A DNA stretch of 64,000 bases from an uncultured Acidobacteriia bacterium (lineage in GTDB: Bacteria > Acidobacteriota > Terriglobia > Bryobacterales > Bryobacteraceae). This document shows, one piece after another, positions 833 through 14,288 of the stretch. Both the position numbers and the translations under genes were made by a program. The number at the start of each line of letters is the position of its first letter. The first letter of the stretch is position 1. Under the pieces are notes generated by a model. The model was not told the origin of the DNA, made no database searches, and saw only the letters and a list, made by a program, of their open reading frames with translations. Location: assembly GCA_903851195.1 (NCBI GenBank), contig CAINNJ010000064.1:124001-188000 (forward strand), read 5' to 3'.

Positions 833-1507
833 TTAGATGATGGACAGATCGAGCTGTGTCAGATCGTCCAGGAGATGGTCGGGGCGGGAGTGTTCGAGAT
901 CGGCGGGAGGGGTGATTCCGGTGCGGACGGCGATGGACTGGATGCCGTTTTCCTGCGCGGCTCGGACGTCCTGCGGGGCGTCGCCGATGAGGGTGATGCG
1001 GGATTGGGGGCCGATGAGGTTTTCGCGGCGGGCGCGTTCGATGGCGAGGCGGGCGAGGCCTCCGCGGGTGGGGGCCATTTCGCCGAAGGCACCGAAGCGG
1101 AAGTGGTGGTGGAGGCCGGCGCGTTCGAGTTTGCGCCAGCCGATGCGGGTGAGGTTGCCGGTGACGAGGGCGAGGGCGATGTCGCGGGTTTCGAGTTCGG
1201 CGAGGAGCGCCGGGACGCCGGGGCAGGATTTGTCGCGGAGGTCGGGGACGGAGGCGAGGTAGGCGTCTTCGGCCGCGGTCTGGATGGCGGGGAGGTGGGC
1301 GGCGATTTCGGGGGCGGGCAGGTTGGCGGCCTGGAGCATGAGGGTGAGGATATCGGGGTCGAGCATGCCGTGGACGGGGATGCCTTCGGTGGTGGTGGTG
1401 AGGCCGGTGATCTGGCGGATGGCATCGACGAGGGCCTGGCGGTGGTACGGGCCGGTGCGGCGGACGAGGGTGCCGTCGATATCAAAGAGGATGAGGCTGG
1501 GGTGCAA
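833..1507 (-). CDS. HAD-superfamily hydrolase, phosphoglycolate-phosphatase-like
   Basis: A 224-residue single-domain phosphatase. HAD motif I is FDIDGTL at residues 8-14, with Asp9 as the expected nucleophile and Asp11 as general acid; motif II is the Thr in LVTGN; motif IV is GDAPQD late in the protein. The cap region sits between motifs I and II, as in subfamily I phosphatases acting on small phosphate esters. The substrate cannot be told from sequence. The start is TTG at 1505-1507, directly before the conserved N-terminus. The upstream coiled-coil gene ends 8 nt before and the membrane protein starts 8 nt after, so the three probably form one transcription unit. Confidence 0.88.
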   Translation of the reverse strand: MHPSLILFDIDGTLVRRTGPYHRQALVDAIRQITGLTTTTEGIPVHGMLDPDILTLMLQAANLPAPEIAAHLPAIQTAAEDAYLASVPDLRDKSCPGVPALLAELETRDIALALVTGNLTRIGWRKLERAGLHHHFRFGAFGEMAPTRGGLARLAIERARRENLIGPQSRITLIGDAPQDVRAAQENGIQSIAVRTGITPPADLEHSRPDHLLDDLTQLDLSII

Positions 1508-1515
1508 GGTCAGGC

Positions 1516-2166
1516 TCAGGCGGCGCCGCGTTCGAGAAGGGCGATGCGGCGATCGTGAGTTTCGGCGATTTTGAGGAGCGCGTCGAGTCGGTCCTTCGTG
1601 CTCTTTTGTTCGCTTTCGGACTGCAGGCGGAAGTCGTTCAGCTTGTTTTCGGTGCGTTCGGAAGCATTGAGCGCGCGTTCGGAGGTGACGGCGAGGGCGG
1701 TCACGAATTCACGGATATCGCTCATCTGGCGGTCGGTGCGCTTCAGGTTGTCGTTTGTGCGTTCGGAATTCACGAGCGCCCGTCCGGAGGCGGCGGCAAG
1801 GGAGGTCACGAATTCCCGGAGATCGCTCATTTGGCGTTCGGTGCGTGCGTTATCTTGCTGCACGTGGGCGCGAAACTGTATCAGGTTTTCTTCGGTGCGT
1901 TCGGATTTGTCCAGCGCTTTCTCCGAAGCGATGAGGAGACGGACGGAGGTGTCGGCGATGGACCTAACGGAATCCCGGAGGTCGTTCAGTTCGAGACGGG
2001 CAAGAGCGGCGTCCTGCTCGCTTTTTTGTCTTCCCTCTTCAATGCGGAGGCGCAGTTCTTCGATGCTGCGACCGAGTTCTTCGGTGCGGCGACCGAGATC
2101 CTCCATGCGATGGCCGAAGAGTTCGAGGTTCATCGCGATCGCGTCGAGACGTTCTTCAAACGACAT
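1516..2166 (-). CDS. Coiled-coil protein with internal repeats, function unknown
   Basis: About 216 residues, almost entirely predicted coiled coil. A unit of roughly 35-40 residues recurs at least three times, each with an Arg-Glu/Asp-rich stretch, a short Ala/Ser-rich stretch and a SERT or similar ending (for example DLREFVTSLAAASGRAL, then DIREFVTALAVTSERAL). There is no signal peptide, membrane helix or catalytic motif. Two starts are possible: ATG at 2164-2166, with GAGGG just upstream, or ATG at 2173-2175; I chose the former. It is divergent from aguB and probably cotranscribed with the HAD gene. A structural or scaffolding role is only a guess. Confidence 0.75.
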   Translation of the reverse strand: MSFEERLDAIAMNLELFGHRMEDLGRRTEELGRSIEELRLRIEEGRQKSEQDAALARLELNDLRDSVRSIADTSVRLLIASEKALDKSERTEENLIQFRAHVQQDNARTERQMSDLREFVTSLAAASGRALVNSERTNDNLKRTDRQMSDIREFVTALAVTSERALNASERTENKLNDFRLQSESEQKSTKDRLDALLKIAETHDRRIALLERGAA

Positions 2167-2206
2167 TGCCCTCATTGTAACCAAACCGGCGGGGGCGAAT
2201 TCTAGA

Positions 2207-3097
2207 ATGGGAGGAGTGAACTCCGACAAATTCCGTATCGGGCTGGTGCAGATGGCGTGCGGTCTGGAACCCCAGGCGAATCTGGACCATGCCGTTGAAA
2301 AAATTCGAGAAGCGGCGGCCAAAGGGGCGCAGATTGTGTGTCTGCAGGAACTGTTCCGGTCGCAGTATTTCTGCCGGGAGGAGGACGCGCGGCTGTTCGA
2401 TCTGGCGGAGAGTATTCCGGGGCCGTCGACCGCCGTGCTTTGTCCGCTGGCGGCGGAACTGGGGGTGGTGATTATCGCTTCCCTGTTCGAAAAGCGCGCG
2501 ACGGGGCTTTATCACAATACGGCGGCGATTATCGACGCGGACGGGACGCTGCTGGGGATCTACCGGAAGATGCACATCCCGGACGATCCGCTGTTCTTCG
2601 AGAAGTTTTACTTCACGCCGGGGGATCTGGGATTCCGGGCGTTCGATACGAAGTTCGGCCGGATCGCCACGCTGGTTTGTTGGGATCAGTGGTATCCGGA
2701 GGCGGCGCGGCTGGCGGCGCTGACGGGCGCGAAGATCCTGTTTTATCCGACGGCTATCGGGTGGCATCCGGCCGAGAAGGCGGAACTGGGCGCGGCGCAG
2801 CACGATGCGTGGCGGACGGCGCAGCGGGCGCATGCGATCGCCAACGGGATTTATGTGGCGGCGGTGAACCGGATCGGATTTGAGGGGACGCCGGAGAACG
2901 GGCTGGAGTTCTGGGGGGCGTCGTTCGTGAGCGATCCGTTCGGGCGGGTGCTGGCGGAGGCGTCGCACGACCGGGAAGAGATTCTGATTGTGGATTGCGA
3001 TGTGAAGCAGATGGAAGAGACGCGGCGCGGCTGGCCGTTTCTGCGGGACCGGCGGATCGACGCGTACGGGCCGATTACGAGCAGGTTTCTCGCTTGA
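2207..3097 (+). CDS. aguB: N-carbamoylputrescine amidase (nitrilase superfamily)
   Basis: A 296-residue carbon-nitrogen hydrolase that would convert N-carbamoylputrescine to putrescine, CO2 and ammonia in the cytoplasm. The nitrilase triad is visible: Glu48 in CLQELF, Lys121 in YRKMHIPDD and Cys158 in TLVCWDQWYPEAAR. The YRKMHIPDDP and CWDQWYPE stretches are typical of AguB rather than of general nitrilases. The ATG at 2207 is used; a GTG at 2216 sits too close to the GGAGG. The next gene, agmatine deiminase, overlaps it by 4 nt, which supports the pathway assignment. Confidence 0.93.
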   Translation: MGGVNSDKFRIGLVQMACGLEPQANLDHAVEKIREAAAKGAQIVCLQELFRSQYFCREEDARLFDLAESIPGPSTAVLCPLAAELGVVIIASLFEKRATGLYHNTAAIIDADGTLLGIYRKMHIPDDPLFFEKFYFTPGDLGFRAFDTKFGRIATLVCWDQWYPEAARLAALTGAKILFYPTAIGWHPAEKAELGAAQHDAWRTAQRAHAIANGIYVAAVNRIGFEGTPENGLEFWGASFVSDPFGRVLAEASHDREEILIVDCDVKQMEETRRGWPFLRDRRIDAYGPITSRFLA

Positions 3098-4128
3098 GCA
3101 ATTCCGGGGGGACGCCGCGCGAACTGGGCTACCGGATGCCCGCGGAGTGGGAGGCGCACGAGGCGACGTGGATCGCGTGGCCCCACAACGAGGAAGACTG
3201 GCCGGGGCGGTTCGAGCCGATTCCGTGGGTCTACGGGGAGATCGTCCGCAAGCTCTCGCAGGTGGAGCGGGTGCGGATTCTGGTAACCGATCGGGTGGCG
3301 GAGGATTCGGCGCGTCCCGTTCTGGATAAATGCGGGGCGAACTGGGACGCGATCGAGTTTTTTAATGTCCAGACGGATCGGGTGTGGGCGCGGGATTTCG
3401 GTCCGCTGTTTGTAAAGGACGCCGCGGGCGCGGTGGCGGCGACGAAGTGGCAGTTCAACGGGTGGGCGAAGTATCCGAATCATCTGCAGGACGAGGCTGC
3501 GGGGCTGGCTATTCCGGGGCTGGTGGGGTTGCCGGGCTGGCAGCCGGAGATGGTGCTGGAGGGCGGGAGTATCGACGTCAACGGGGCGGGGCTGCTGCTG
3601 ACGACCGAGGAGTGTTTGCTGAGTCCGGTGCAGGCGCGGAATCCGGGGCTGACGCGGGAGCAGATCGAGGCGCGGATGCGGGAGTATCTGGGGATCGACC
3701 GGGTGTTGTGGCTGCGGAACGGGATTGCCGGGGACGATACGCACGGGCATGTGGACGATCTGGCACGGTTCACGGACGCGGAGACGGTGGTGCTGGTGGC
3801 GGAGGAGGATCCGGCGGATGCGAATTATGCGCCGTTAAGGGAGAATCTGGAGCTGATGCGGGAGTTTCCGGTGCGGGTGCGGACGCTGCCAATGCCGGCG
3901 CCGCTGGTGTTCGACGGGGTGCGGCTGCCGGCGAGTTACGCGAACTTTTATGTCGCGAACCGGCTGGTGCTGGCGCCGGTGTTCAACGATCCGAACGACC
4001 GGATTGCGCTGAATATTCTGGCGGAGTGTTTTCCGGGCCGGACGGTGGTGGGGATCAATTGCGTGGAACTGGTTTGGGGGTTGGGGACGCTGCACTGCAT
4101 GACGCAGCAGCAGCCGGCGGCGGGGTAG
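3094..4128 (+). CDS. aguA: Agmatine deiminase
   Basis: A 344-residue member of the peptidyl-arginine-deiminase-like (guanidino-group-modifying) fold, converting agmatine to N-carbamoylputrescine plus ammonia. The N-terminus GYRMPAEWEAHEATWIAWPH is diagnostic, and the catalytic cysteine is Cys335 in GTLHCMTQQQP near the C-terminus. HGHVDD in the middle carries the active-site His. The start is a TTG at 3094 inside the stop region of aguB (TTGA overlap), which suggests translational coupling; the next ATG at 3136 would remove the conserved GYRMP start. Together with aguB it makes putrescine from agmatine. Confidence 0.94.
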   Translation: MSNSGGTPRELGYRMPAEWEAHEATWIAWPHNEEDWPGRFEPIPWVYGEIVRKLSQVERVRILVTDRVAEDSARPVLDKCGANWDAIEFFNVQTDRVWARDFGPLFVKDAAGAVAATKWQFNGWAKYPNHLQDEAAGLAIPGLVGLPGWQPEMVLEGGSIDVNGAGLLLTTEECLLSPVQARNPGLTREQIEARMREYLGIDRVLWLRNGIAGDDTHGHVDDLARFTDAETVVLVAEEDPADANYAPLRENLELMREFPVRVRTLPMPAPLVFDGVRLPASYANFYVANRLVLAPVFNDPNDRIALNILAECFPGRTVVGINCVELVWGLGTLHCMTQQQPAAG

Positions 4129-4129
4129 G

Positions 4130-4699
4130 TCAGGAGGGCTGTTCGGCGAGGGCGCGACGGAGCCAGGCTTGGCCCAGGGTCAGGTCGCGTTTCATGGTCG
4201 CCAGCGAAATGGAGAGCGTTTCGGCGATTTCTTTGAGTTCCAGACCTCCGAAGTAACGCAACTCGACGACCTGCGCCACGCGCGGACTGTGGCTCCCGAG
4301 TTTTTCGAGCGCATCGTGCACGACGAGCATGTCGAGACCGCGGTCGGGGGCTCCGACATCGAGGTCGGCGTTGAGTTGCAGACAGCCGCCGGCGCCGCGC
4401 TTTTCGGAGTGGCGGACACGCGCGGCATCCACCAGGATCTGGCGCATCAGGCGGGCTGCAAGGGCATAGAAATGGGCGCGGTTGTGGAGCGTGCCGCCGT
4501 CCTGGCTGACGAGGCGGAGATAGGCTTCGTTGATGAGGGCCGTGGGCTGGAGGGTATGGTTGGGACGCTCATTGCGCAGGTACCGGGCGGCGATTCGGCG
4601 CAGTTCGGCGTAGACCACCGGAGTGAGCTGTTCCATGACGCGGGGCCGGTCGTTATCCCAGTCCTGGAGTATCAGGGTGATGTCCGTTCCGGAGGTCAT
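4130..4699 (-). CDS. RNA polymerase sigma factor, ECF subfamily (TIGR02999 type)
   Basis: A 189-residue sigma factor with region 2 around NHTLQPTALINEAYLRL and region 4 around VAQVVELRYFGGLELKEIA. HTLQPTALINEAYLRL is characteristic of the TIGR02999-type ECF group common in Acidobacteria and Planctomycetes, which often partners a Ser/Thr kinase; no kinase lies nearby. The ATG at 4697-4699 gives the family N-terminus; the frame extends 16 codons further to 4747 without similarity. It is convergent with aguA, with one base between the stop codons. No anti-sigma gene is adjacent, so its signal is unknown. Confidence 0.88.
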   Translation of the reverse strand: MTSGTDITLILQDWDNDRPRVMEQLTPVVYAELRRIAARYLRNERPNHTLQPTALINEAYLRLVSQDGGTLHNRAHFYALAARLMRQILVDAARVRHSEKRGAGGCLQLNADLDVGAPDRGLDMLVVHDALEKLGSHSPRVAQVVELRYFGGLELKEIAETLSISLATMKRDLTLGQAWLRRALAEQPS

Positions 4700-4786
4700 G
4701 GGCTGCGTCCCCTGAATTTTAGCAATGGCGGATGTGACAGATTGCACGCAGGACGATGCGGTTGCGGGGAAAGGGTGAGATATAGG

Positions 4787-5539
4787 TCAGGCCGGAAGTG
4801 ACCGGATCAGGTTGCAGGCCCAGGAGAGATGGGCGGCGTAGGTTCCGGTGCAGGGAGCGAGGTCGGATGCGATGCGGGGGTGGCCGTCGGGCGGGGGGCC
4901 GTAGTCTTTGCTGTTGGGTGTTATGAAGACGGCCGGCTGGTTGAACCCGCGCCGGCGGAGTGCGGTGAGGAGTTCGAGGAATTCTTCGAAGATTTCGCAG
5001 TCTTTGTATTGCTGACCGGATTTGGATGCAGGCGGAAGCGCTCCGAAGACGCGATTACGGGCTCTGAAAACACAGTCCGGGGTTCCCTCAAAGATAACGA
5101 GCGAGTCCGCCAGTTCATCCATCACCTTCAGCAGGCGATTTTCGACAAGGTCGGAAAGCCGATCCTGCACGGCAGCCTCTTCTCCGGCGGGAGATCCCGC
5201 GAAATGTTCGGGAAACAGAAGGGTGGCAACGGCGGAGAGCCGAGACAGCGCATGGTTCAAAGATTTCATGTGAGCCATGAGTTCGGCGGCGGCGCGGGTG
5301 CGAGCCGCCCCGAACTCCTGCAGAACATTTGCGGTACTAACAGCCCATACCTGCCTGGGGCCGGACCGGGCATCCCGCACGATCGTCGCGGCAGCAGTGA
5401 CGATGTCCGGTTGGAGTTCATGGCGTAAGGGAACGCGGATGACGTCCAGAATTGCAGCCGTGTCCAAAAACAGCAACGGCCGTGGACAGGCGAGTACGGA
5501 AGCAACAAGCTGCCCGCTTGAGAGCGGTACGCCCGACAT
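4787..5539 (-). CDS. PIN-like nuclease domain protein (PIN_12/DUF4935 type)
   Basis: 250 residues. The acidic positions expected of a PIN fold are present: Asp26 in LLFLDTAAILD, Glu75 in NVLQEF, Asp180/Glu182 in QYKDCEIFEEFLELL and Asp212 in VFITPNSKDYG. The KDCEIxEEFLELL and FITxNSKD strings resemble the DUF4935 PIN group. PIN proteins are metal-dependent ribonucleases, many of them toxins, but this one is long for a VapC toxin (about 130 residues). Its ATG overlaps the stop of the preceding gene by one base, so the two are translationally coupled. GC is visibly lower than in the flanking genes. The toxin role is inference. Confidence 0.6.
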   Translation of the reverse strand: MSGVPLSSGQLVASVLACPRPLLFLDTAAILDVIRVPLRHELQPDIVTAAATIVRDARSGPRQVWAVSTANVLQEFGAARTRAAAELMAHMKSLNHALSRLSAVATLLFPEHFAGSPAGEEAAVQDRLSDLVENRLLKVMDELADSLVIFEGTPDCVFRARNRVFGALPPASKSGQQYKDCEIFEEFLELLTALRRRGFNQPAVFITPNSKDYGPPPDGHPRIASDLAPCTGTYAAHLSWACNLIRSLPA

Positions 5540-6180
5540 CAGGCGGGCTGAGACTCGTAGACGTTCAGGAGGTCGCGGGCCCGTTCATAGTCACGGCCCA
5601 ACTCCGATGCCTGATCCTGACTCCAGCCTTCCTCCTCGACGAGCCAGCGCTCGAGTAAGGAACTGCTGAGGGTGGCCCCGTCGCGATGGGCAGCCGTCAC
5701 AAACTCGTTCCAGCGTTGGCGATCCGGGCGATACGGGAAAGACCGGTTAGCGAGTCTGGAAAAATTCCGTAACAAGGCCGCCGTGTCGACGGAAAGGAAG
5801 TCCTCTATGTGCGTTTCGGCAGGTCCGAGCCGCGCGTCGACACCGGTTAACCGTGCGGCCGGGGATACGAACCGGAGATAGAACTCCTGCAGGATACTGT
5901 TGTAGCGATCAAAACGGAGAGACGGATGTCTCGCGGACAAGATGTTACCGACGTATAAGTTCCCGTCGGGACGTTTCGCCAGCCACAGGTTACTTTCCGG
6001 GCGCGTTCCGGAAGCCGTGCAGTGGAAGCAATACATGTCGCCCAGCATGGAAATCAGGACTTCCTTTTCGAGAGGACGGGATCTTTCCCAGCCGTCGGAC
6101 AGGAGTTGCTCCAGTTGATCGATGAACCGGGCGAGTTGCTCGCGGGTGCCGGGAATATCGAGGTCCTGGTAAAGCTTCAT
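5539..6180 (-). CDS. Conserved-looking protein of unknown function coupled to the PIN-like gene
   Basis: 213 residues, soluble, with no signal peptide. I do not recognise the family. A single CxxC (Cys51 and Cys54, in MYCFHC) follows a helical N-terminus; the centre holds NLWLAKRPDGNLYVGN, which reads like a beta-hairpin; the C-terminal 80 residues are helical and charged. Its start lies 12 nt after the stop of msrA and its stop overlaps the PIN gene start by one base, so msrA, this gene and the PIN gene probably share a transcript. It could be the partner or antitoxin of the PIN protein, but nothing in the sequence proves that. Confidence 0.6.
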   Translation of the reverse strand: MKLYQDLDIPGTREQLARFIDQLEQLLSDGWERSRPLEKEVLISMLGDMYCFHCTASGTRPESNLWLAKRPDGNLYVGNILSARHPSLRFDRYNSILQEFYLRFVSPAARLTGVDARLGPAETHIEDFLSVDTAALLRNFSRLANRSFPYRPDRQRWNEFVTAAHRDGATLSSSLLERWLVEEEGWSQDQASELGRDYERARDLLNVYESQPA

Positions 6181-6192
6181 ACCGTGTCCGGT

Positions 6193-6729
6193 TTATGCCG
6201 TCTTGCGCTTGGCGGCGAAGGTTTTGCGGAATTTGGCGAGCTTCGGCGCCACTACGAAACGGCAGTAGGACTGGTTCGGGTTGTTGGCCAGATAGTCCTG
6301 ATGGTAGGCTTCGGCGGGCCAGAACTGCTGGGCGGGCTCGATGGAGGTGACGATGGTGTCGCTGTAGACTTTGCTCGCGGTCAGTTCCGCGATGAAGGCT
6401 TCGGCTTCCACCTGGTGGTCGGGCGTGTGGCAGAAGATGACGGAGCGGTACTGGGTGCCACGGTCGTTGCCCTGGCGGTTGAGGGTGGTGGGGTCGTGGA
6501 GAGTGAAGAAGATTTCGAGGATCTCGCGGTAGGAGATGACGTCGGAATCGAAGGTGACCTGCACCACTTCGACGTGGCCGGTTGTGCCGGAACATACGGC
6601 CTCATAAGTGGGATTGGGCCGGGCGCCGCCCATGTAGCCGGACACCGCCGATGCCACGCCCTGCGTTTCCCGATAGGGGGCTTCGAGGCACCAGAAACAC
6701 CCACCGCCCAACGTTGCGATCTGCTGCAT
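6193..6729 (-). CDS. msrA: Peptide-methionine (S)-S-oxide reductase
   Basis: 178 residues, the usual MsrA length. The active-site motif GGCFWC is at residues 9-14, with Cys11 as the catalytic nucleophile; GYMGG, the GHVEVVQV strand and the YHQDYLANNP segment near the C-terminus are all conserved. It reduces methionine-S-sulfoxide in free or protein-bound form using thioredoxin. Cysteines near the C-terminus (Cys in NQSYCRF) may resolve the sulfenic acid. Its start is only 18 nt from the divergent MetE-like gene, and it appears to lead a run with the unknown protein and the PIN-like gene. Confidence 0.96.
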   Translation of the reverse strand: MQQIATLGGGCFWCLEAPYRETQGVASAVSGYMGGARPNPTYEAVCSGTTGHVEVVQVTFDSDVISYREILEIFFTLHDPTTLNRQGNDRGTQYRSVIFCHTPDHQVEAEAFIAELTASKVYSDTIVTSIEPAQQFWPAEAYHQDYLANNPNQSYCRFVVAPKLAKFRKTFAAKRKTA

Positions 6730-6747: not shown

Positions 6748-7752
6748 GTGCAGGTGATCCTGACCACTACCGTAGGTTCTTACCCGATTCCCGAATGGCT
6801 GGCCGCATTGCCGAGCGAGCAGGCGCGCGAGGACGCGACGCGCGTCGTTTTCGATATTCAGAGGCGGGCGCGCATCGACCTGCCGACCGATGGGGAGCTC
6901 TATCGGTTCGACGTGAATCATCCCGATACGAACGGGATGATCGAGTATTTTGTGCGGCCGATGGAGGGGATCCGGACGCAGCTGGGGCGCGGCGATTGCG
7001 ACCGGTTCGCGCAGCTGGCGCAGATGCGGTTCCGGCGGAAACCGGCGGCGGCGGTGGTGAGCGCGCTGGGCGAGGGCGGGCTGAACCTGCTGGCGGATTG
7101 CGAGATGGCGGCGAAAGTGGCGGGCGGGCCGTTTAAGTTCACGGTGACCAGTCCGTATATGCTGTCGCGAACGCTGCTCGACCTGCATTACGGGGATTTC
7201 GAAGAGCTGACGATGGCGGTGGCGGGGGTGCTGGCGGAGCAGGTGCGCGGGCTGCCGTGCGACTGTGTGCAGATCGATGAAGCGAATATTCCGGGGAATC
7301 CGGAAGACGGGCCGCTGGCCGCGCGCGCGATCAATGTGGTGCTGGACGCGGTGACGTCGAAGCATCGGGCGGTCCACCTTTGCTTCGGGAATTATGGCGG
7401 GCAGACGATTCAGACCGGCGAGTGGGCGCGGCTGACGCAGTTTCTGAACGCGCTGCATGCGGATCATGTGGTGCTGGAGCTGGCGCGGCGTCCGGCGGGG
7501 GAACTGGAGGCGCTGCGGGATGTGGAGGCGCGGATTTCGCTGGGGATCGGCGTGGTGGATATCAAGGACAACCACGTGGAGACGGCGGAGGAGATCGCGC
7601 GGCGGATCGAGGCGGTGGAGAAGGTGGCGGGCGCGGGGCGGGTGGGATGGATCCATCCGGACTGCGGGTTCTGGATGCTGAAGCGGAGCGTCGCGGACCG
7701 GAAGATTGCGGCGCTGGCTCCGGGGCGGGATTTGTATTTGGGGAAGAGATAG
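6748..7752 (+). CDS. MetE-like cobalamin-independent methionine synthase family protein, C-terminal-domain form
   Basis: 334 residues, equivalent only to the catalytic C-terminal half of MetE (full MetE is about 750 residues). The TTTVGSYPIP start and all four zinc ligands are visible: His210 and Cys212 in VHLCFGN, Glu244 in VVLELARRP and Cys306 in HPDCGFW. VDIKDN near residue 270 matches the family. Such short proteins are methyltransferases using corrinoid or methyl-folate donors, but the donor is not clear here. The start is GTG at 6748 (a GTG at 6754 is an alternative). The 18-nt gap to msrA means the promoters must overlap coding sequence. Confidence 0.85.
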   Translation: MQVILTTTVGSYPIPEWLAALPSEQAREDATRVVFDIQRRARIDLPTDGELYRFDVNHPDTNGMIEYFVRPMEGIRTQLGRGDCDRFAQLAQMRFRRKPAAAVVSALGEGGLNLLADCEMAAKVAGGPFKFTVTSPYMLSRTLLDLHYGDFEELTMAVAGVLAEQVRGLPCDCVQIDEANIPGNPEDGPLAARAINVVLDAVTSKHRAVHLCFGNYGGQTIQTGEWARLTQFLNALHADHVVLELARRPAGELEALRDVEARISLGIGVVDIKDNHVETAEEIARRIEAVEKVAGAGRVGWIHPDCGFWMLKRSVADRKIAALAPGRDLYLGKR

Positions 7753-7887: not shown

Positions 7888-9669
7888 TCAGAGTGGCTTG
7901 CGGGTCCACTTGAAGCGTTCGTAACCTTCATCCATACATCGCCTAAACAGCTCCTTTGTGCGCACGAAACTATAATTCTCGCTCTCGATCTTTTGTTGGT
8001 AGGCCTCAGAGCTGAGCACCGCTTTGAGGATCGGCGTCACTCTCGATGAAGCCAACTTCCGCGTTAGCTGGCGGAAATCGTTCTCCTTCTGAAGACCACG
8101 CCCGTAAAAGTCCAGGTAGTCGTTCACCTTCGTGTCGTTCAGCAGAGCCTGAATCATCAGGGCAAAAATGAGATTTCGCGCTTTACGCACGGCGATCCGG
8201 AGCTTCGCCGGCGCTTTGGTCTCGACTTCCTCCATCGGGCTGTTCAGCACCAGATTGACCTTATAGGCCAAAATGATTCTTCGGGCATCCGACTGGAGGT
8301 ATCCGTCGCTGAAAGTTTCTGAATAATATTTGGGATTATCAAACACTTCGCGCAAGCGCCAAATCCTGTCCAGTTCTCCCTGCGCCGCAAGAAACGTCTG
8401 AGCTAACCGCTTGATTTCAATGTCGCGGGAATCTCCGAATCCCATTTCAGCCAGTTCATTGTCGGACAGGCTCTGAAATGAATTTTCCTGTCTGGAGTAA
8501 AAAATCCCGAGTTCATCTTTAAACTTGTCGAAGAGATCGCACTGTCTTTTGTCGTTTGCCCGGAGATGCCAGGGTTCGACGGGGTTCTGCTGGTTGTTCG
8601 ACACGGTGATGTCACTCACGAAGGCGCTCATCGGATCGTGCTCGACAATTCTGGTGAGAACCTGAATCGCTTCGAGACGGCACACATTGGCTCTGAGCGC
8701 CGGATTGCCTTCATTGTCGTCGAGGAATCTGGCAAGGCTTGTGACGGTCTGGGCGCCATTCAGAAGCCGTGGGACCCGGAGGATAACCCGCCCATCGAGG
8801 AACTCTACTTTTCCGGCTGCGAGCGTGACCCCGTTGTGGTTAAACGTGAAAAGTTCGGGCGGTTTCTGCTCCTTCAGGACGATGTCCGACAGCGCTGCCC
8901 TTATTCGCTTGTTAGGAGGATTTTCAGCCGACAGGCCGGCACGAATGTTTCTATCCAGGAAAATCGGGCCAAGTTCCTTATGTATCCGGTGCAGGTCCAT
9001 GATCGGGACGAAACCAACGTGGAGCACCGTGTCCCGGTCAGGCATTCGCGCCGATACTGTGCCGGAGGTGAATACCACAGTGTGGGAATCGCGGGACGGG
9101 GGGACCGGAGTGGAACGCCGATCAGAGACGAATTCCGCGTCCTTCACGTCGACTTCGCGGCCTTTGAAGTACGCCCGGATGAACCACTTTTTCCCGGCAA
9201 GCCTTTCCCTCCGCTCCTGAAGCCCTTTACTGCTTTCGGCGGCGTTCAGGTCGCCTTTAAAGACGAAGTGAATGTAGACCCGATCGATTAAAGCCTGGTT
9301 CTCTTCAAGGTCGGCCTTCAGCCTCGCAAGGAGTTCATTTTGCGTGGGATCCTGGAACGGGTTGCCAAAGATGCGAGGGATTCCGGCGTCGGTAATGCGA
9401 TCCAGGGAATCCCTGAAAAGACCATGATTCTCCGACCACTTGAACTGATAAAGAAACAGATTCCGCCCGTTCCTGTCGATATGGTAGGCATCAATGCCGT
9501 AATCGTTATTGCCGAATGCAACGCAGCTAACGAAATCCTCCGCATGCCCGCCGAATTTTTTCGTCAGGTACAGCAGCGCGAAATAATCCTCTTTCAGGCC
9601 CCTGTACCGAGGGTAAAACTCCGAATGCAACTGATCCAGTTCCTGTTGATCCCGATTTGTGATTGCCAT
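7888..9669 (-). CDS. AIPR-family (abortive infection phage resistance) protein with PD-(D/E)XK-like N-terminus
   Basis: 593 residues. The central block IFLDRNIRAGL, then ELFTFNHNGVTLAAG and PRLLNGAQTVTSL (about residues 237-312) is the AIPR signature, seen in phage-exclusion proteins. The first 80 residues hold GNNDYGIDAYHID, then LFLYQFKW: Asp60 and the Gln75-x-Lys77 pair fit a PD-(D/E)XK restriction-like nuclease (GxD...QxK). The C-terminal 200 residues are helical. An ATG at 9667-9669 is used; a TTG three codons upstream is possible. GC is visibly lower than in neighbouring genes and it has no cofactor gene, which suggests acquisition as a single-gene defence module. Confidence 0.8.
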   Translation of the reverse strand: MAITNRDQQELDQLHSEFYPRYRGLKEDYFALLYLTKKFGGHAEDFVSCVAFGNNDYGIDAYHIDRNGRNLFLYQFKWSENHGLFRDSLDRITDAGIPRIFGNPFQDPTQNELLARLKADLEENQALIDRVYIHFVFKGDLNAAESSKGLQERRERLAGKKWFIRAYFKGREVDVKDAEFVSDRRSTPVPPSRDSHTVVFTSGTVSARMPDRDTVLHVGFVPIMDLHRIHKELGPIFLDRNIRAGLSAENPPNKRIRAALSDIVLKEQKPPELFTFNHNGVTLAAGKVEFLDGRVILRVPRLLNGAQTVTSLARFLDDNEGNPALRANVCRLEAIQVLTRIVEHDPMSAFVSDITVSNNQQNPVEPWHLRANDKRQCDLFDKFKDELGIFYSRQENSFQSLSDNELAEMGFGDSRDIEIKRLAQTFLAAQGELDRIWRLREVFDNPKYYSETFSDGYLQSDARRIILAYKVNLVLNSPMEEVETKAPAKLRIAVRKARNLIFALMIQALLNDTKVNDYLDFYGRGLQKENDFRQLTRKLASSRVTPILKAVLSSEAYQQKIESENYSFVRTKELFRRCMDEGYERFKWTRKPL

Positions 9670-9843: not shown

Positions 9844-12354
9844 TCAGGCGGCGATGCGGGTGGGCTTCGGGCTGCGCCCGCGCAGGCTTTCGACGATACC
9901 GCGCCATTTGCGCATGGCGAGTTCGATGAGGTTCAGTAACAGCGCGAGGGCGAGCAGGCCGGGCCAGAGGCGCAGGGTGGATTCGATGTAGTGGCCACCA
10001 TCGTCAAAGAGCTGGCGGGCGGAGGGATTGAAGCGTCCGCCGGTGGCGAGGGCGATGGATTTCAGCAGCGCCTCGTTCGAGCCGTAGTCGGAGAGTTCGG
10101 ATTCCTGGCGGTAGAGGCCGACTTCGGGGAAGGCGCGGGTTTCGTTGAGCGGGCGGACGCGGAAGAGGCCTTCGAGTGCACCGATGCGGATGCGGCCGCG
10201 GAAGTTGCCGGGGGAGACGCGGCTGACGTCGAGCGGTTTGCGGAAGTTGCCGGGGCCTATGACGTAGAGGTCCGGGGGGACGGTCGGTTCGAGGGCCTGG
10301 GTGGAGAGGTGGTAGTCGACGACGAGTTCCTCATTGGGAGCGTCATAGCGGGCGACCGCTTCGCTTTCGTTGCCGTGCGGGAGCAGATCGCGGAAGATGT
10401 TGGTCCAGAGGCGGTCGAAGCCGTTCCAGCCGACCCAACTGGCGGCCCAGCGGCTCTTGGCGTCGGAGGCGAAGACGGCGGAACGGCCGAGGCCGTACTG
10501 CCAGCGGACGAGGAGCGGGTCCTTTTCGTCGACTTCGAGGATCTGGTCGGCGGACGGCTTGGGGTCGAAGCGGACGTAGCCGGCGAGGACCGGGGCGGAG
10601 GGGATGTCGACCTTGTCGAGCAGGTCGGAGGGGTGGCGCACGAGGGCCTTGATGGGCTTCTCGATGGCGGTGGTGCCGGTGTGCTCCTTCACGTCTTTCA
10701 GCAGGATCTGTTCGAGGCCGGTGGGGTCATTCAGGAAGTACGACTTGCCTTTGGCGTTGGTGGCGATGTGTTCGAGGTAGGCGCGGTTGACGTCCTGCCC
10801 GAGGCCGACGGTGGAGATGGTCACGCGGTTGTTGGCGGCTTCGCGGGAAAGGGTGAGGCTGTCGCCTTCCTCCGAGATACCGTCGGTGAGCAGCACGATG
10901 TGCTTGTAGGTGGAGTTCAGGGGCGCGATGCGGTGGTAGGACTCGTTGAGGGCGGGCGCGATCTGGGTGCCGCCGTCCGGGGTGATGCCGCCGATGAGGC
11001 GCTTGAGCAGCGGCTTGTCGTCGGCTTTGCGGATGGGCACGGCCCACTGGAAGGAGTTGTCGAACATCAGGACGCCGACAAAATCGTCAGGGCGAAGGTT
11101 TTCCACCACGCCGATGGCGGCGGCGCGGGCGAGTTCGATCTTCTTGCCTTCCATGGAAGACGATTTGTCGATGATGAGGACGACGGCGGTGCCTTCGGGT
11201 GACCGGGGCGGGGCGAGTTTGGCGGGGAAGGTACGGTCGAGAGCGTCTTCGGGCTGTCCTTTTTTATCGACGTAGGCGCTGCGTTCGCCAGCGATCCAGA
11301 GAGCGCCGCCACCGCGCTGGACGAACGCTTCGACGCGCTGTTTGTCGGCGGGGCGAAGGGCTTCCATATTGTCGTTATTGAAAACCAGGAGCTGGGCGTC
11401 GTCGAGGTTCGCGGGCAGGGCTTTGGCTGGCGAGAAATCGAACTTGTTGGCGGTAAGCACGCCGACGATGTGCTCTTCGGTGCCGGCGGGGTCTTCAGAG
11501 ACCCAGACGACTTTGGGACGGCGTACGGCGACGGCGTTTTCGAAGCGGGACTCGCCCATGCCGGGGGCCTGGACTTTGCCGCTGAGGTCGATGGCGCCGG
11601 CGGCGTTGAGGCTGGCGCGGATGCGGACGCGATTTTCACCGGCGGCGAGGGCGACCTGATGGGTGCCGATGGTCTTGCCTTCGGCGGCGAGGTCGATGGT
11701 GGCCTGGGTGGCTTTGGGGGAGAAGATGGTGAGGTCAACGGGGAAACGCTCGCCGGTGAAGACGGCGCCGGGGACGCCGACGGCCTGGGTCTGGAGTTGG
11801 GGCTGGGTGCGTCCGGCGAGGGCGATGGTGTCGATGGGGATGCCTAACTGCTGGGCCTGCCAGGCGGCGCGGGTGGCGGCGCCTTCGTTTTCGTTGCCGT
11901 CACTGACAAGGACAAGGCGATGGATGGTTCCGGCGGGCAGTGAGGCGAGGGCGGAGCGGATGGGGGTTTCGAGGTTGGTGCCGCGTCCGTTGCTGCCGGT
12001 GGTGCGGCCGATGTGCGAACCGATTTCCTCTGCGGTGAGCGCGCGGGGAGTGCGGGCGAACGGGATGATGCTCAGGAGGTTGGAGCCGCGGGCGCTGTCC
12101 ATCTGGCGAAGCAGAGAGGCTTCGCGGGTCAGATCCTCGTCGGTAATGCTGGCCGAGGTGTCCATGAGGACCGCGAGGGCGACTTTGTGGTCGCGGGACT
12201 CGAAGACGGGTTCGGCGAGGGCGAGGACAACGGCGACGGCCATGCCGCCTTTGAGGAGCAGCGGGGCGTGGCGAAGCTGACGGCGCCATTCCCAGGCCAG
12301 CCAGCCGAGGGGCAGCGGGAGCAGGAGGAGTGCCCAGAGGCGTTCGAAGATCAT
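9844..12354 (-). CDS. Membrane protein with two von Willebrand A domains and a glutamine-amidotransferase-like domain
   Basis: 836 residues. Two N-terminal helices (WALLLLPLPLGWLAW and GGMAVAVVLALAEP) precede a first VWA domain with MIDAS motif DTSAS near residue 67; a class-I glutamine-amidotransferase-like segment without catalytic Cys follows (VQRGGGALWIAGERS); then a second VWA domain with DKSSSM and LLTDGISEEG; and a C-terminal helix (LWPGLLALALLLNLIEL). This is the last gene of the MoxR-DUF58-BatA operon, with a 4-nt overlap (ATGA). VWA proteins in such operons are thought to bind metal-dependent partners in envelope complex assembly; the client here is unknown. Confidence 0.88.
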   Translation of the reverse strand: MIFERLWALLLLPLPLGWLAWEWRRQLRHAPLLLKGGMAVAVVLALAEPVFESRDHKVALAVLMDTSASITDEDLTREASLLRQMDSARGSNLLSIIPFARTPRALTAEEIGSHIGRTTGSNGRGTNLETPIRSALASLPAGTIHRLVLVSDGNENEGAATRAAWQAQQLGIPIDTIALAGRTQPQLQTQAVGVPGAVFTGERFPVDLTIFSPKATQATIDLAAEGKTIGTHQVALAAGENRVRIRASLNAAGAIDLSGKVQAPGMGESRFENAVAVRRPKVVWVSEDPAGTEEHIVGVLTANKFDFSPAKALPANLDDAQLLVFNNDNMEALRPADKQRVEAFVQRGGGALWIAGERSAYVDKKGQPEDALDRTFPAKLAPPRSPEGTAVVLIIDKSSSMEGKKIELARAAAIGVVENLRPDDFVGVLMFDNSFQWAVPIRKADDKPLLKRLIGGITPDGGTQIAPALNESYHRIAPLNSTYKHIVLLTDGISEEGDSLTLSREAANNRVTISTVGLGQDVNRAYLEHIATNAKGKSYFLNDPTGLEQILLKDVKEHTGTTAIEKPIKALVRHPSDLLDKVDIPSAPVLAGYVRFDPKPSADQILEVDEKDPLLVRWQYGLGRSAVFASDAKSRWAASWVGWNGFDRLWTNIFRDLLPHGNESEAVARYDAPNEELVVDYHLSTQALEPTVPPDLYVIGPGNFRKPLDVSRVSPGNFRGRIRIGALEGLFRVRPLNETRAFPEVGLYRQESELSDYGSNEALLKSIALATGGRFNPSARQLFDDGGHYIESTLRLWPGLLALALLLNLIELAMRKWRGIVESLRGRSPKPTRIAA

Positions 12355-14288
12355 GCGGCGCTCCCTAAACCGGATTTTACGCTGGCCGATTTCACGACAT
12401 GGATGCGTGAGCTGGCGAAATTACCGTAGATAATCCACTCGGCAAGGAGCAGGCCGAGTCCCGCGAGGGCGAGCCAGGGCCAGATGGTGTGGCTGCGGCG
12501 GAAGGTGTCGGTCCAGGCGGGGACGCCTTTGCGGGCGTTGGTGGGCGCGGTCCATTTGGTGTCCCACATTTCCGGGAGGGTGAGGGAGAAGACGCGTTCG
12601 GAGTTCCCGGCGATGACGCGGACGCGGGCCGGTTCGCCGGCGAAGAACTGCACGGCGCGGTCGCGGATGTTGAAGGGGAGAACGGTGCCGTTATCGGTGA
12701 GGACCTGGACGGCGTTGCGTTCGGCGGGCCGGGTGAGCGCGGCGGGAACCGGGGCGGAGACGGCTCCGGTGCTTTGGGTGGCGACGTCAACTTCGCGGAA
12801 GACGCCCGGTTCCATCCAGCGCAGGATGTTGGCGAGCAGCAGCGGGGTGGTGAGTTCGTAGCGCATGGTGCCGGCGAAGGGGTTGAAGCCGATGACGACC
12901 GTGCGGGTTTTGCCGTCGTCGCTGGTGCGGGCGACGAGGACGGGACCTTTCTCAATTTCGGCAATGCGCTGGGTGCCCGGGCCCATTTCGAACACCGAGG
13001 CGGACTCGATCTGCGTGTTGCGGGCGCGGAGGCCTTCGGTGAGGGGCTGGTCGGGGATCCAGCGGAGACCTTCGGGTTTTTCGACGCGTTCGCGGATGGG
13101 GATGGGGGGCTTGTCGGACGGCGGATCGATCCAGAGTACGTTGCCCTGAGGGCTGGTTTGCGGGTGGAAGCGGTCGAGGATAACGAGGCCGTCGTTGGCC
13201 GGGGTGTATTGGGATTTGGGCCGGAATTCGGCGTTGACGCGCGGGTCGGAGGCGAGGGCGGGGCGCATCAGGTCGGGCTGGTCGGTGTAGGCGACGACGT
13301 GGAGGACGCGTTGTTCGGGGAGTTCGAGGGCGGCGTAGTTATCGGCGGCGAAAGCATCCTTCGGGTAGAGGCGGGCTTCGAGGATGCCGGCGGCGCGGGT
13401 GCGGACCTTGAAGACCGTTTCTTTCTCGGCGCCGGGCGCGAGCTCGAGGGGATGCAGGCCCATGGGGGCTTTGCCGAAGTTCAGAGTGACGTTGGCGAGT
13501 CGGGCGGTTTTGCCGTAGTTGCGGACGCGGACGAGGATGTCCCAGGTGCCCGGGTCGGTATCGGAACGGCGCGCGCCAACGCTGCGGAGACCGGCGTTTT
13601 CGACGGTGTCATCCACATTGAGGATGCGGAAGGCGGGAATGGGAGGCAGGCTCATGCTGTTGGCCTCCCGGGCGGAGATGCGGCCGGGCCCGGCGTAGAC
13701 GATTTCGCCGGCGGTGGCGCCGCTCTGGCGCTGGAGTTCGCGGGCGAATTCGAGGTTCTGGGAGAGATTGAGGGCGGTGGCGCCGGGCTGGGATTCGAGG
13801 ATCGCGCGGGCGATTTTGCGGCGGTCGGACTCCCAGGAGGTGGCGGGGGTGGCGAGGCCATCGGCGCGGACGACGAGGACGCGGTCGGAGGGAGGGACGG
13901 CGCGGAGCCAGCCGAGGGCGTTGGCGCGGACCAGATCCATGAGTGTGTTGCCGTTGTTGGCGCCGGGCAGAGAGGCGCCCATCCAGGCGCTGGTGTCGAG
14001 GACGAGGACGTGGTCGCGGCGTTTGTTCAGCGTGCCGCCGAACTGGAATTCGGCGATGGCGAGCAGGAGCAGCAGCATGCCGAGCAACTGGAGAAGTAAA
14101 GAGAGCGGCTGGTTGACCTTGCGGTTGCGGGAGACCGGGGCGGGCTGGCCGGGCGTGACCCAGAAGCGGAGGGTGGAGACGACCAGGCGGCGGCGGGTGC
14201 GGTCGAGCAGGTAGAGAGCGACGGAGAAGGCGGCGACGGCCCCGAAGGTGACGAGGAACTGCGCGAGGGTGAGGTTGAGGAACTCCAC
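12351..14288 (-). CDS. BatA-domain membrane protein with VWA-like region
   Basis: 645 residues starting at a GTG (14286-14288) directly after the DUF58 stop. The N-terminal two-helix BatA region (FLNLTLAQFLVTFGAVAAF and LLLQLLGMLLLLLAIAEF) is followed by a VWA-like domain beginning VLVLDTSAWMGA (DTSAW, a degenerate MIDAS DxSxS), then beta-rich CARDB-like and amidotransferase-like segments, and a C-terminal helix (WPWLALAGLGLLLAEWII). Both ends would anchor it in the cytoplasmic membrane with most of the chain in the periplasm. It shares its architecture with the next gene, suggesting they arose by duplication. Confidence 0.85.
   Translation of the reverse strand: MEFLNLTLAQFLVTFGAVAAFSVALYLLDRTRRRLVVSTLRFWVTPGQPAPVSRNRKVNQPLSLLLQLLGMLLLLLAIAEFQFGGTLNKRRDHVLVLDTSAWMGASLPGANNGNTLMDLVRANALGWLRAVPPSDRVLVVRADGLATPATSWESDRRKIARAILESQPGATALNLSQNLEFARELQRQSGATAGEIVYAGPGRISAREANSMSLPPIPAFRILNVDDTVENAGLRSVGARRSDTDPGTWDILVRVRNYGKTARLANVTLNFGKAPMGLHPLELAPGAEKETVFKVRTRAAGILEARLYPKDAFAADNYAALELPEQRVLHVVAYTDQPDLMRPALASDPRVNAEFRPKSQYTPANDGLVILDRFHPQTSPQGNVLWIDPPSDKPPIPIRERVEKPEGLRWIPDQPLTEGLRARNTQIESASVFEMGPGTQRIAEIEKGPVLVARTSDDGKTRTVVIGFNPFAGTMRYELTTPLLLANILRWMEPGVFREVDVATQSTGAVSAPVPAALTRPAERNAVQVLTDNGTVLPFNIRDRAVQFFAGEPARVRVIAGNSERVFSLTLPEMWDTKWTAPTNARKGVPAWTDTFRRSHTIWPWLALAGLGLLLAEWIIYGNFASSRIHVVKSASVKSGLGSAA

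Follow-up and report, generated by a model that had tools for sequence, protein, structure and literature searches.

A 64,000-nucleotide stretch of DNA from an uncultured Acidobacteriia bacterium (the window; contig CAINNJ010000064.1) carries an AIPR-family gene at positions 7888 to 9669 on the minus strand. Its product is one more representative of a protein family known from phage defence. The locus is a genuine and probably functional defence gene that is ordinary as an AIPR protein. We consider it on balance probable that this stand-alone protein was horizontally acquired and cuts invading DNA as a nuclease gated by a nucleotide. The family, the motif, a family-level profile match, the predicted folds, the foreign composition and the defence-type neighbours of some relatives are counted as supported; catalysis, nucleotide use, target and trigger are what we infer.

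Family assignment and predicted domains

The open reading frame (ORF) is intact, running from an ATG at 9669 to a stop at 7888-7890 and encoding 593 amino acids (aa), and the plus-strand frame over the same interval is interrupted by stops. The start codon is supported by a 52%-identical relative (L010), whose alignment to the AIPR protein begins at residue 1. The protein matched PF10592 (AIPR) at 74.4 bits against a curated cut-off of 25 (E 1.7e-20; residues 238-442, profile positions 1-205 of 308), which places it in the family. No other Pfam family was found in the protein, and it is the sole PF10592 match in its own genome. Further labels were AbiU in PADLOC (1.6e-18), phrog_1841 ('Abi alpha-like') in PHROGs (2.9e-26, residues 53-404) and, weakly, MzaE in NCBIfam (20.9 bits, where the cut-off is 1050). 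An earlier sequence-only reading had placed an AIPR gene at exactly these coordinates, leaving its strand unstated, and had proposed it as a single-gene defence candidate. The family assignment is confirmed, the proposal is a fair one, and all the motifs then listed are present (GIDAY with D60, YQFK with Q75/K77, FLDRNIR, NHNGVTL and LLNGAQTVTSL).

Residues 1-205 (9055 to 9669; all parts of the gene lie on the minus strand) form a predicted Mrr-like PD-(D/E)XK nuclease domain with the catalytic-type motif G53..D56-x-G-I-D60 ... Q75-x-K77 (9439 to 9513). Conservation was assessed in an alignment of 43 sequences, including the protein itself, 42 of which have the N-terminus; this sample was gathered by searching with the AIPR protein itself or its close family. 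D60 is conserved in 33 of the 43 rows, Q75 in 30 and K77 in 28, and 27 of the 42 that include the N-terminus carry all three, own protein counted, which is above chance. In the predicted model D60 adjoins the strand at 61-65, and Q75 and K77 lie within the strand at 70-77, giving the D ... (E/Q)-x-K arrangement on adjacent strands that is typical of the Mrr-like PD-(D/E)XK superfamily. An unfiltered profile of the 42 AIPR N-termini matched Mrr_cat (E 6.4e-6, probability 85%), relating the domain to a known nuclease family at the family level; the match was not significant when the nine closest relatives were used alone. Structural matches of the model include the defence-system nucleases Avs4, HamA, Can2 and Card1. 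Neither of the two outcomes that would have refuted the sequence-only reading was obtained: the N-terminus shows a PD-(D/E)XK motif, a family-level profile match and a predicted nuclease-like fold, and the PF10592 match is significant. The same reading presented the nuclease-plus-AIPR arrangement as a special fusion, a misleading term because the layout is shared by those 27 of 42 aligned sequences.

The protein has the D-x-G-I-D ... Q-x-K register in common with Mrr type PD-(D/E)XK nucleases and differs from them in that its nuclease is joined to an AIPR/ParB-like domain. With a motif-selected profile, PDB chain 4f0p ('Restriction endonuclease', which we take to be MspJI) aligned at the D-Q-K motif over its residues 328-378 (E 0.16). 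Two designed repeat proteins that scored in the same search were treated as artefacts.

The AIPR core spans residues 207-415 (8425 to 9051) and, as modelled, resembles the ParB/sulfiredoxin (Srx) nucleotide-binding fold. Its motifs are nearly free of variation: N241-x-R243 (8941 to 8949) and N279-G280 (8830 to 8835) are present in all 43 rows, as are N304, G305 and Q307 of N304-G305-A306-Q307-T308 (8746 to 8760), with T308 in 40, while N359-x-Q361 (8587 to 8595) is present in 42 and the remaining row has a gap. The protein thus carries the invariant N-x-R, NG and NGxQ residues of its family. Weak profile alignments set N304-T308 in register with the DGQHR/DGQQR of DndB/DUF262, T308 standing at the place of the usual arginine. 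A relationship in sequence between DUF262 and AIPR was not upheld, since the sole aligned stretch, NGAQT on DGQQR, scored within the range of shuffles; PF03235 (GmrSD_N, DUF262) gave no match up to E 1 in the AIPR protein. A whole-protein sequence search of the PDB returned one chance match (E 2.1), and Foldseek found nothing in the PDB at E 0.001 or better for the predicted structure. Among viral predicted structures three matches passed E 0.001, the best being an AIPR protein at 8.6e-10, and GmrSD N-terminal-domain proteins came next at 0.019 and 0.030. The C-terminal region (residues 416-593; 7891 to 8424) is predicted to be mostly helical, with high predicted local distance difference test (pLDDT) values.

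Proposed mechanism and alternatives

Under the favoured interpretation, residues 1-205 would act as an Mrr-like nuclease using D60, Q75 and K77, and residues 207-415 would fold as a ParB/sulfiredoxin-like domain of the DndB/DUF262 kind and bind a nucleotide, some feature of foreign DNA, or both. The helical C-terminal region would probably serve oligomerisation or DNA contact. A foreign-DNA cue and a nucleotide would be read by the ParB-like domain, and recognition would lead to nucleotide turnover there, which in turn would license the nuclease. This order is proposed by analogy with SspE, for which PMC13251355 reports that recognition is followed by GTP hydrolysis and this by activation of the nuclease, and which is the nearest worked example of such a switch.

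In SspE, BrxU and GmrSD (DUF262 + DUF1524) the nuclease is a C-terminal HNH, whereas here it comes first and is Mrr-like; NGxQT takes the place of DGQQR, and the DUF262 sequence match is not above shuffles. DndB (PF14072, DGQHR domain) shares a weak profile match of 147 columns that lays NGxQT on DGQHR, but PF14072 was unmatched up to E 1 in an hmmscan of the protein itself. PMC3506569 assigns the DndB N-terminus to the AbiU1/AIPR family. With that family (PF10592, including AbiU, phrog_1841 and MzaE) the protein has in common the AIPR core and the invariant N-x-R, NG, NGxQ and NxQ. No measured mechanism for AIPR proteins was found in the literature searched.

The sequence-only reading had suggested abortive infection (Abi) without partner genes. 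An effector of this kind would hold its nuclease restrained until infection and then cut host DNA or RNA, so that the cell dies; we think this unlikely. The family name, the AbiU and 'Abi alpha-like' labels and the structural matches to defence-system nucleases agree with it, but the Abi names trace to a few lactococcal cases. Four of the nine close relatives lie near type I restriction-modification, DUF262 or BREX genes, and no adjacent antitoxin-like partner was recognised among the neighbours scanned against Pfam. Because of this restriction-gene context and the ParB/Srx-like AIPR part, a gated restriction enzyme is no worse a fit than a suicide device, and abortive infection is unsupported in the form first stated.

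Two other roles were weighed. It is improbable, in our estimate, that the protein is an accessory or regulatory ParB/DndB-like factor with a vestigial nuclease. One AIPR clade and a further locus (L014) do lack the D60-Q75-K77 triad, and that clade is found alongside other nuclease-type genes, so AIPR proteins can manage without these residues; the present protein nevertheless retains all three, as do 26 of 32 compared loci that do not belong to the clade. Very improbable is an RNase toxin acting through an N-terminal HEPN domain, as is stated for AIPR proteins in PMC3506569. Eighteen of the 43 rows do contain an Rx4-6H N-terminally, counted irrespective of its position, but residues 1-205 of our protein contain none, its single copy being at 212. 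Its N-terminus is moreover predicted to be alpha/beta with D..QxK strands, not all-helical, so the published statement is not borne out for this protein, and the family profile of N-termini matches Mrr. The interest of the gene lies in the picture proposed for the family as a whole: an Mrr-like nuclease coupled to a ParB/DndB-like switch, with AIPR proteins that have a partner nuclease dispensing with their own.

AIPR proteins occur in many genomes. If the two-domain interpretation is true, solitary AIPR genes gain a testable mechanism with named residues, the family is linked to the ParB/Srx nucleoside triphosphatases of phosphorothioate and modified-DNA defence, and a reason is offered for the clade without nuclease residues.

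Matches to the AIPR protein at E 0.001 or better were found in 23 of 396 genomes sampled from the phylum. Phage records and viral contigs searched with the protein yielded no relative, and a plasmid search gave seven records, none covering 80%. The same-genus AIPR relative (L044) has an FRG-domain gene downstream of it (11435-12490; 7.8e-11). At another locus (L126, 3319-5562 and 5621-7348) a large 748-aa ORF, in which a Walker-type GSGKT stretch was noticed by eye, is directly followed by an AIPR gene with threonine in place of the motif lysine; the two may form a two-gene unit.

Composition and genomic setting

The lower GC of the gene, remarked on in the sequence-only reading, was borne out: its GC is 0.533 (0.652 at third codon positions, GC3) against a window mean of 0.624 (standard deviation 0.024), and only 2 of 623 equal-sized sliding windows are lower. 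That reading also had the gene flanked by housekeeping genes of the opposite strand. This holds downstream, where a methionine-synthase-like gene lies on the plus strand (6748-7752); the upstream neighbour, a VWA gene (9844-12354) at a distance of 174 base pairs (bp), shares the minus strand with it. Neighbours scanned against Pfam were VWA, methionine-synthase-like, MsrA, a PIN_12-like protein below the cut-off and one protein without a match.

Among 19 genomes of the genus, own genome included, one other held a near-full-length relative (40% identity) and a third held partial matches. The closest relative met was 52% identical, on a contig titled as a Planctomycetota metagenome-assembled genome (MAG). 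Eighteen of the 19 carry the VWA gene. No AIPR gene was found by tblastn in 12 fetched VWA regions, some of them ended by contig ends, and the msrA/methionine-synthase pair is conserved in seven fetched relatives with no AIPR match within the regions taken. The AIPR gene thus occupies a junction that none of these relatives showed, and horizontal acquisition, as part of the favoured interpretation, is likewise probable on balance.

A defence hotspot at the VWA gene is not claimed, since seven of the ten downstream regions in relatives were judged ordinary by eye only; the other three held candidates that were scanned. One of these carried Schlafen AlbA_2 and a uracil-glycosylase superfamily protein (L096) and another a PIN protein (L093). 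The third, downstream of the closest VWA gene (86% identical; L087 in genome G009, 837-5621), encodes a methylase of the Eco57I type together with a T5orf172/ResIII protein, and therefore a restriction-type system.

Elsewhere in the window, two ORFs of 250 and 213 aa touch end to end at 4125-6193. The 250-aa product matches PIN_12 below threshold (25.5 bits, with 32 required), and the 213-aa protein has no Pfam match. Genome G011 gave no match to the stretch, and only about 10 bp separate the conserved flanks there. This suggests either an insertion here or a deletion in G011, and the two ORFs perhaps encode a toxin-antitoxin or defence function.
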